DNA of 64,000 nucleotides from Thalassorhabdomicrobium marinisediminis (GTDB lineage Bacteria; Pseudomonadota; Alphaproteobacteria; Rhodobacterales; Rhodobacteraceae). Position numbers and translations under genes: made by a program. The notes beneath the pieces are model-generated. The model saw only the letters and a program-made list of their open reading frames with translations. It had not been told where the DNA came from and did no database searches. Positions 34,028 to 39,113 of this stretch are shown piece by piece; position 1 is the first letter of the stretch, and every line of letters starts with the position of its first letter. The stretch is taken from assembly GCF_003072065.1 (NCBI RefSeq), contig NZ_QCYG01000007.1:124001-188000 (forward strand), given 5' to 3'.

Positions 34028-34480
34028 ATGTCCGCAGACACCGACCTTATCAAGCTCTATTCGACCCGCATTCTGGGGCTGGCGGCCGATATTCCCCATC
34101 GCCAGCGGCTTGAAGCGCCGGACGGCACGGCGAAGCGGCGCTCGCCGCTCTGCGGCTCGACGGTGACGGTGGATCTGGTGCTGAAGGACGGTCGGATCAG
34201 CGATTACGGGCAGGATGTGAAAGCCTGCGCGCTCGGACAGGCCTCGGCGGCGGTGGTCGGCGCGAACGTCATCGGTCAGGATGAGGCGACGGTGCAAAAA
34301 GGGCGCGATCAGCTTCACGCCATGCTGAAAGACGGGGGCGCGGTGCCGGAGGCGCCCTTTGACGGGCTCGAAGTTCTGGCACCCGCGGCGGAGTACAAGA
34401 ACCGCCACGCCTCGATCCTTCTGGCCTTCGACGCGACACTTGACGCTTTTGCGGCTGCCCGCACGGCGCAGGCCCGCTAG
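34028..34480 (+). CDS. iron-sulfur cluster assembly scaffold protein (IscU/NifU-N family)
   Basis: 150-residue U-type scaffold on which [2Fe-2S] clusters may be built. The N-terminus LIKLYSTRILGLAADIPH is followed by the first ligand in RRSPLCGSTVTVDLVLKDGRISDYG, the second in QDVKACALGQASAAVVGANVIG, and a late alanine-rich helix. The third canonical cysteine of IscU is not visible (the region ending EYKNRHASILLAFDATLDAF has none), as in a roseobacter branch of short scaffolds. ATG 34028 opens the conserved helix; the frame is open further upstream but overlaps hisI. Convergent with the SOS-type microprotein unit. Confidence 0.85.
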   Translation: MSADTDLIKLYSTRILGLAADIPHRQRLEAPDGTAKRRSPLCGSTVTVDLVLKDGRISDYGQDVKACALGQASAAVVGANVIGQDEATVQKGRDQLHAMLKDGGAVPEAPFDGLEVLAPAAEYKNRHASILLAFDATLDAFAAARTAQAR

Positions 34481-34492
34481 CCCCCTCCAAAG

Positions 34493-34530
34493 AAAAAAAC
34501 CGCCGCTTTCCGGGACAGGGAAAGCGGCGG
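34493..34530 (-). terminator. strong rho-independent terminator of the 40-residue membrane protein unit
   Basis: Twelve perfect base pairs, CCGCCGCTTTCC (34500-34511) with GGAAAGCGGCGG (34519-34530). On the minus strand it is followed by a seven-T run (complement of 34493-34499). It is about 145 bases beyond the microprotein stop, leaving a long 3' untranslated region. It may also stop the convergent scaffold gene. Confidence 0.92.
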
Positions 34531-34674
34531 CAGGATTGCATTTCGTGAGGCACCGGCGGGGTCGGGACAGGCAGTGTCCCGGGACGCGGCAAGACAGGCA
34601 ATGTCGAACGTCGGCAGATCAGATGGTGGGACACGAGATCCGGGACCACCGGCACGAAACGCGAAGGCAGACAG
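34531..34674 (-). ncRNA. structured 3' untranslated region / possible sRNA
   Basis: 144 bases between the microprotein stop and its terminator. The ends are complementary: CACGAAA near 34654 with TTTCGTG near 34550, closing a long-range helix. Inside are two copies of GACAGGCA(G/A)TGTC, one able to form GGGAC/GTCCC-type pairing. No frame with a ribosome site is apparent. It could simply be 3' UTR, or release a small RNA. Confidence 0.3.
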
Positions 34675-34797
34675 TCAGAACAGATTGGGCAGATAAAGCG
34701 CCGCGAACAGCATCACGATCAGGGCCGCCATACCAAGCGCATCGGCTAGGATCGTCTCGGACGAGCGGACAATAACGCTTTTGATTTCTCTGGCCAT
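34675..34797 (-). CDS. 40-residue single-span membrane protein with LexA and CtrA boxes (SidA-like candidate)
   Basis: The frame starts MAREIKSVIVRSSETILADA and continues into a hydrophobic C-terminal span of about 20 residues (GMAALIVMLFAALYLPNLF). A strong Shine-Dalgarno (GGGAGAGG) lies six bases before ATG 34795-34797. A polar, basic N-terminus followed by one span suggests an N-in inner-membrane peptide. Its promoter holds GAAC-N7-GAAC (34863-34877), the alphaproteobacterial LexA box, placed over a TATAAA -10-like element. A CtrA box (34843-34858) lies just downstream. A strong terminator ends the unit. Caulobacter SidA, a 29-residue SOS-induced inner-membrane inhibitor of FtsW/FtsN, has the same size class and control; homology cannot be claimed from sequence. 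It lies downstream of recG in the same direction. Confidence 0.72.
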   Translation of the reverse strand: MAREIKSVIVRSSETILADALGMAALIVMLFAALYLPNLF

Positions 34798-34842
34798 GAT
34801 CACCTCTCCCTTTCATGTTCCTTCTGTTGCCCCTTTGTTCCA

Positions 34843-34858
34843 TTAACCACGCATTAAC
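34843..34858 (+). promoter_or_regulatory. CtrA binding box TTAA-N7-TTAAC
   Basis: TTAACCACGCATTAAC at 34843-34858 matches the full CtrA consensus TTAA-N7-TTAAC on the plus strand. It is about 46 bases upstream of the 40-residue protein's ATG and just downstream of its predicted transcription start, a repressing position. Confidence 0.7.
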
Positions 34859-34862
34859 GCAA

Positions 34863-34877
34863 GAACTTTATAAGAAC
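34863..34877. promoter_or_regulatory. LexA (SOS) box GAAC-N7-GAAC
   Basis: GAACTTTATAAGAAC is a perfect match to the GAAC/GTTC-N7 direct repeat recognised by alphaproteobacterial LexA. Two further GAAC tetramers follow at 34884 and 34893 with N6 and N5 spacing. On the minus strand the box encloses TATAAA, a likely -10 of the microprotein gene, so LexA would block RNA polymerase directly. Confidence 0.75.
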
Positions 34878-34905
34878 AAACGAGAACAAAAAGAACGAGG
34901 AGGTG

Positions 34906-39113
<4,208 letters not shown>

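Follow-up and report, generated by a model that had tools for sequence, protein, structure and literature searches.

A LexA-boxed cassette beside recG pairs a conserved, predicted membrane microprotein with a structured RNA in the Rhodobacteraceae

Abstract

We describe a small genetic cassette of Thalassorhabdomicrobium marinisediminis, located in a 64,000-nucleotide stretch of DNA (hereafter the window), in which a conserved microprotein gene, LexA-type operators, and a conserved structured RNA lie together. LexA control of the cassette is strongly supported by comparison among relatives, and the 40-residue microprotein is apparently switched on by DNA damage. With moderate confidence, and by analogy with SidA and YneA, we regard the cassette as a LexA-repressed unit of a single-span microprotein and a structured RNA that most likely acts as a brake on cell division.

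The microprotein gene and its product

The gene occupies positions 34675 to 34797 on the reverse strand and comprises 40 codons opening with ATG; a Shine-Dalgarno sequence read directly, GGGAGAGG, stands five bases 5' of the start (34803 to 34810, reverse strand). A single-sequence search places the gene in 134 of 198 Rhodobacteraceae genomes, and a profile search in 174 of 198. Across 123 pairs, dN/dS is 0.12, which indicates selection on the protein, and third codon positions account for 1681 of 2555 differences. The frame of 40 codons is a genuine gene, kept by purifying selection.

The family appears confined to the Rhodobacteraceae. A profile search of 385 genomes across the class gave no convincing relative outside the family: its five strong matches are all in same-family genomes, and four others are short fragments within long frames (E 0.004-0.01). 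For the loci compared here, four of the 134 single-sequence matches were left out (G021, G028, G153, and G166), and two of the resulting 130 loci were removed because tblastn did not re-find the ORF (L114 and L137), leaving 128. The protein alignment took 62 of 81 diverse microproteins picked from these. In it, Asp19, Gly22, and Leu34 are invariant and Leu36-Pro37 nearly so. No NCBIfam model matches the 40-residue protein, and Pfam gives only a sub-threshold match to YldA (E 0.025); the 62 relatives add one marginal Pfam match and one marginal PHROGs match. A phage collection held no match to the microprotein, and a plasmid collection held one, in a 1.58-Mb Pseudorhodobacter record.

The product is predicted to lie in the membrane. 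AlphaFold2 models two helices, residues 2-11 and 13-39 (pLDDT 90.5, pTM 0.50). The central 15 membrane positions carry no charged residue in any of 127 relatives, mean net charge N-terminal of Asp19 is +1.1, and the amphipathicity of the N-terminal helix exceeds that of its own shuffles in 121 of the 127. These features suggest a membrane-inserted peptide whose N-terminus faces inwards and which has a helix at the interface. A preliminary description, made from the sequence alone, had proposed a 40-codon frame with a Shine-Dalgarno sequence and a single membrane span. The frame and its ribosome-binding site are located as claimed, the span is likewise predicted from the modelled helices and the uncharged core, and the frame, instead of being lost where its flanks are kept, persists across the Rhodobacteraceae.

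Operators, promoter, and genomic setting

Upstream of the gene lie two LexA-type operators. Operator 1 (34863 to 34877) reads GTTC-N7-GTTC on the coding strand and GAAC-N7-GAAC on the forward strand; within 160 nt upstream, it is present in 125 of the 128 loci. Operator 2, GAAC-N7-CAAC (34826 to 34840, reverse strand), is absent from the preliminary description; it overlaps the -10-like position, and the form GAAC-N7-[GC]AAC recurs within 160 nt in 112 of 128. The probable promoter, TTGCGT and GAACAA separated by 16 bases (34835 to 34862, reverse strand), owes its assignment to a spaced pattern in relatives: TT[TG] is spaced 20 bases from GAACAA in 111 of 128 upstream regions (within 160 nt), where the elements mostly read TTTACA, 17 bases, GAACAA. 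Two further GAAC tetramers (34884 to 34887 and 34893 to 34896) stand next to operator 1 at spacings of 6 and 5 bases; by eye, an additional GTTC 5' of operator 1 is common among relatives.

A single box of this kind is not evidence alone, because it is not rarer than expected at random: the window holds two copies of GAAC-N7-GAAC where 1.51 would be expected, and the genome holds 93 where a reversed control gives 113. The ORF together with its LexA boxes stands above chance because the arrangement is conserved among relatives. The conservation also holds when loci are anchored on recG, independently of the ORF: operator 1 is present in 78 of 80, operator 2 in 74 of 80, and the ORF in 77 of 80 by pattern plus one (L160) by reading the sequence. 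The two ORF-less loci, L208 and L163, are also without boxes beside recG. In Caulobacter, LexA recognises the consensus GTTC-N7-GTTC, and a single box is the rule, described for about 97% of SOS promoters (PMC12700426); the cassette differs in having two. Their position on either side of the promoter suggests tight repression, as would suit a product harmful if mistimed.

The genome of origin carries GAAC-N7-GAAC upstream of lexA and recA. The box also precedes frames matching UvrA, PcrA/UvrD, ImuA, and two radical-SAM families, all matched from roughly their first 200 residues and below whole-protein cut-offs. Elsewhere in this genome, LexA-type boxes stand beside a 159-residue frame, which we take to resemble MmcB, and a 97-residue frame (L230 and L233); neither has an NCBIfam match, and both are possible further SOS genes.

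The distribution of LexA itself speaks for the link. Genomes without a LexA hit more often lack the gene (6 of 14 vs 18 of 184, Fisher p 0.0027, with kinship and genome incompleteness ignored), and so they do among high-quality genomes only (4 of 6 vs 17 of 168, p 0.0021, kinship likewise ignored); several of the genomes without a hit are incomplete, and of the 24 genomes lacking the gene, 4 were recognised as such by elimination. Against the link, the gene is present in 8 of the 14 genomes without a LexA hit and absent from 18 of the 184 LexA-bearing ones. One genome (G150; 3 contigs, 100% complete) has a microprotein match at E 5.9e-7, yet no match to the LexA DNA-binding domain, which suggests either LexA-free regulation or a diverged LexA.

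The promoter spacer also holds a CtrA-like box, TTAA-N7-TTAAC (34843 to 34858), whose single occurrence in the window compares with 0.00 expected from window shuffles. Despite this rarity, CtrA control finds no support in conservation. Among the 128 loci the strict box occurs only in the window itself, and it occurs in none of the 80 recG-anchored loci; the looser TTAA-N7-TTAA is found in 2 of 128 and in 3 of 80, and those three loci belong to the nine nearest kin. Not being conserved, the box is probably not functional. Of the regulatory elements in the preliminary description, the GAAC-N7-GAAC box and the two extra tetramers are borne out, the former by its retention in relatives and the latter by their presence; the CtrA box exists as a motif, and the link to CtrA is not supported.

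The cassette is bounded by recG, its upstream neighbour and not part of it (34906 to 36996, reverse strand), and by a convergent NifU_N-like gene (34028 to 34480, forward strand; 19.8 bits, just below the cut-off of 22). In 123 of 128 loci, recG is found upstream of the ORF and on its strand, and a relative of the NifU_N-like gene is present in 92 of 128; the 128 loci show no other conserved neighbour. The nearest named relatives of this recG are those of Octadecabacter and Pseudooctadecabacter, which identifies the family as the Rhodobacteraceae. In Tropicimonas marinistellae (L208), operators, ORF, and RNA lie intact about 2 kb from recG, behind an unrelated gene, and operator 1 is retained in all five of the 128 loci without a recG neighbour; the cassette is therefore autonomous. 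At L163, no cassette was found within the 3 kb examined at recG. Another locus (L098, genome G157) has a 75-residue version of the frame behind recG and an upstream region without LexA-type boxes; it has the look of a copy that decayed or was rewired.

A structured RNA in the 3' untranslated region

A conserved structured RNA, absent from the preliminary description, lies in the 3' untranslated region (UTR) of the cassette, between the stop codon and the terminator (34538 to 34662, reverse strand). It was recognised by covariation and anchored hairpin tests and consists of a long closing helix, a hairpin with a CUGUCCC loop, a small hairpin over UGCC, and a third hairpin with a UGCCU loop. The intrinsic terminator behind it, read directly and by folding, is the 12-bp hairpin with a T-run that had been claimed (34493 to 34530, reverse strand). 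The 187 nt 3' of the stop fold with a z-score of -6.58, and none of 200 shuffles is as stable. For the UTRs of 59 relatives, with the terminator removed, the median z is -1.78, and 41% fall below -2; the terminator went unrecognised in 12 of 204 UTRs.

Plain MAFFT alignment recovered the terminator only, the other stems having diverged too far to be aligned by sequence, and was replaced by anchored hairpin tests and a covariance model. The anchored test is independent of any alignment fitted to the structure. By this test, a hairpin of at least six pairs surrounds [CU]GUCCC in 99 of 137 cases against 35 expected, a hairpin of at least six pairs surrounds UGCC[UC] in 62 of 121 against 31, and a closing helix of at least nine pairs is present in 56 of 152 against 15. 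A first covariance model was built from seven close sequences and searched with L149 excluded. Of 79 named loci, 60 gave a match to it at the cassette when E values up to 1 were allowed, and 50 did with the limit set at 0.0054; two weak matches fell elsewhere. In 63 aligned matches, all 30 base pairs show changes on both sides, compensated cells number 472, where shuffles give 122.7 (none of 500 reaching the observed count), and the covariation score is 0.685, compared with 0.086 or less when slid; these counts lean towards the structure because the alignment was fitted to it.

A second covariance model finds one copy in the genome of origin; under strict filters, with only 17 candidates scored per genome, 63 of the 198 family genomes gave matches. 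The matches lie 11-43 nt 3' of the microprotein stop in 56 of 64 cases overall and in 47 of the 47 best. Outside the Rhodobacteraceae, the model gives weak matches only (E 0.009 and above, 8 of 289 genomes).

The RNA corresponds to no Rfam family at threshold, either in the window (34300 to 35000) or in seven relatives. The Rfam family ar7 (RF02342) scored 27.5 bits in the window (E 0.002) against a gathering score of 60 and was absent from the seven relatives at E up to 1; it was set aside. The R. sphaeroides sRNA StsR was weighed as a candidate identity, and it is not supported: the available part of its description presents it as an orphan under RpoHI/RpoHII, without recG or SOS. In the accessible portion of the Weinberg 2010 set of candidate structured RNAs, recG appears in a reference title only.

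ftsZ as a possible target

DinR of Klebsiella pneumoniae derives from the 3' end of the LexA-controlled dinI mRNA and represses ftsZ (PMC10907235). On this precedent, ftsZ was examined as a target of the RNA. The conserved exposed motifs of the RNA are CUGUCCC and UGCCUGUC. Two exposed motifs, GCCUGU and CUGUCC, are complementary to the ftsZ ribosome-binding site; GCCUGU is present in 77 and CUGUCC in 102 of 127 UTRs, against 13 and 9 of the ORFs. That ribosome-binding site is CAGGCGGA in 57 of 59 gene-bearing genomes vs 6 of 10 gene-less ones (p 0.003, kinship ignored). For ACAGGC and GGACAG near ftsZ, gene-bearing and gene-less genomes do not differ significantly (p 0.25 and 0.30). In the genus of origin, ACAGGCGGACAG stands immediately before the ftsZ ATG in all 12 readable leaders (13 genomes; L257 is unreadable).

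Pairing strength was compared with 57 background starts, all drawn from the window. In the genome of origin, 1, 2, and 0 of the 57 pair as strongly as ftsZ for the three loops. Across 42 genomes (6 of 48 genome pairs were excluded because the UTR was short or not recognised), the pairing of ftsZ exceeds the mean of the background (Wilcoxon 1.8e-8), at a median rank of 9 of 57, but 5 of the 57 starts average pairing as strong as ftsZ. These values are suggestive only, and we keep as a working hypothesis that the RNA pairs with the ftsZ ribosome-binding site.

The ftsZ leaders of the family (L249-L339) are themselves notable: their ribosome-binding site, CAGGCGGA(C), is unusual and conserved, and the genus of origin adds a hairpin with GGGACGGGC just upstream of it. 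These features suggest that ftsZ is under special translational control, whatever the cassette does.

Proposed function and alternatives

To our knowledge, SOS division brakes have been described in only a handful of lineages, each time with a different inhibitor. The microprotein resembles SOS membrane division inhibitors, without demonstrable membership among them. SidA of Caulobacter crescentus is a very short protein of the inner membrane on which LexA acts through GTTC-N7-GTTC (PMC4211646, PMC12700426); the microprotein is likewise very short, predicted to lie in the membrane, and preceded by such a box. Unlike SidA, which has 29 residues, it has 40, sits beside recG, and is accompanied by a structured 3' RNA; the likeness is one of description, and among 385 genomes of the class the profile turned up no convincing member beyond the Rhodobacteraceae. 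That it works like SidA is a reasonable inference. It also resembles YneA of Bacillus subtilis, a single-span SOS division inhibitor whose helix binds FtsW TM7 (PMC13396833).

We propose the following course of events. In the undamaged cell, LexA on the two operators flanking the promoter would keep the cassette shut. Upon damage, RecA-triggered LexA cleavage would release a transcript of about 330 nt, with an inferred 5' end. Its first part would be translated into a 40-residue, single-span inner-membrane microprotein with its N-terminus inside; its second part would form the structured RNA ending at the terminator. The microprotein, in the manner of SidA and YneA, would attach to one of the membrane helices in the complex for septal wall synthesis (FtsW/FtsI/FtsN), causing a temporary stop in division. 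The RNA may stabilise the message or serve as a second, RNA-level arm.

Division arrest is rated likeliest because single-span SOS peptides acting on the septal synthase recur, as SidA (PMC4211646) and YneA (PMC13396833), and because a Caulobacter lexA deletion filaments on account of sidA (PMC12700426). Against it, the microprotein is without a periplasmic domain; it has no counterpart of the extracytoplasmic LysM domain that YneA is reported to require for inhibition (PMC13396833).

The membrane prediction would fit a different kind of SOS peptide equally well. The microprotein is like TisB and DinQ of Escherichia coli in being a short, predicted membrane peptide under LexA-type control, and a depolarising peptide of their kind would lower membrane potential and ATP with no direct divisome target, leading to slowed growth or favoured persistence. 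We consider this unlikely. TisB is a charged amphipathic membrane helix, unlike the span described here, which is uncharged in 127 of 127 relatives. No antisense RNA partner was recognised (Rfam gave no antisense RNA antitoxin above threshold over 34300 to 35000), and the conserved RNA is on the gene's own strand. Many type I toxins are patchily distributed; the microprotein gene is instead a fixed, family-wide single locus. DinQ speaks for this rival, being of the same size class with a single membrane helix and SOS control; it depolarises the membrane and reportedly has no effect on filamentation (PMC3567139).

It is likewise improbable, in our judgement, that the microprotein tunes another envelope process, such as a protease, a sensor kinase, a transporter, or gene-transfer-agent release. 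In its favour, many small membrane proteins regulate larger ones. LexA has also been linked to the CckA-CtrA pathway in R. capsulatus (PMC6473078). Against this idea, no pathway is indicated, and the conserved neighbours are only recG and the NifU_N-like gene.

The ftsZ comparison bears on two further proposals. Like DinR, the cassette RNA sits at the 3' end of an mRNA for a small protein under LexA-type control, and DinR is linked to division (PMC10907235). It differs in that the stretch through which DinR pairs is reported to be specific to Klebsiella (PMC10907235), whereas the cassette RNA is structured and conserved across the family; and ftsZ is only a suggested target here, unlike for DinR. 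The DinR authors describe no further sRNA linked to a LexA box in their Klebsiella data (PMC10907235). One proposal, which we hold to be doubtful, is a two-armed SOS checkpoint carried by a single transcript, in which the microprotein blocks septal wall synthesis while the RNA loops CUGUCCC and UGCCUGUC mask CAGGCGGA of ftsZ; if true, a protein and an RNA would stop division together, in an arrangement conserved across a bacterial family. The other, that the main product is a LexA-controlled regulatory RNA like DinR, which as the 3'-end RNA of dinI mRNA represses ftsZ (PMC10907235), and that the frame is accessory, is very unlikely: compensatory changes in 30 of 30 pairs, the exposed and conserved CUGUCCC and UGCCUGUC, and partial complementarity to the ftsZ ribosome-binding site speak for it, but a dN/dS of 0.12 reflects selection on the protein, 5 of 57 background starts average equally strong pairing, and ftsZ keeps CAGGCGGA in 6 of 10 genomes without the microprotein gene.

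In searches of openly licensed papers, none of the titles or abstract openings listed described the microprotein gene or the RNA. It is unusual for a conserved membrane microprotein and a conserved structured RNA to share one LexA-controlled unit. If our preferred reading of the cassette as a division brake is true, it would be the SOS division brake of a large and well-studied bacterial family.
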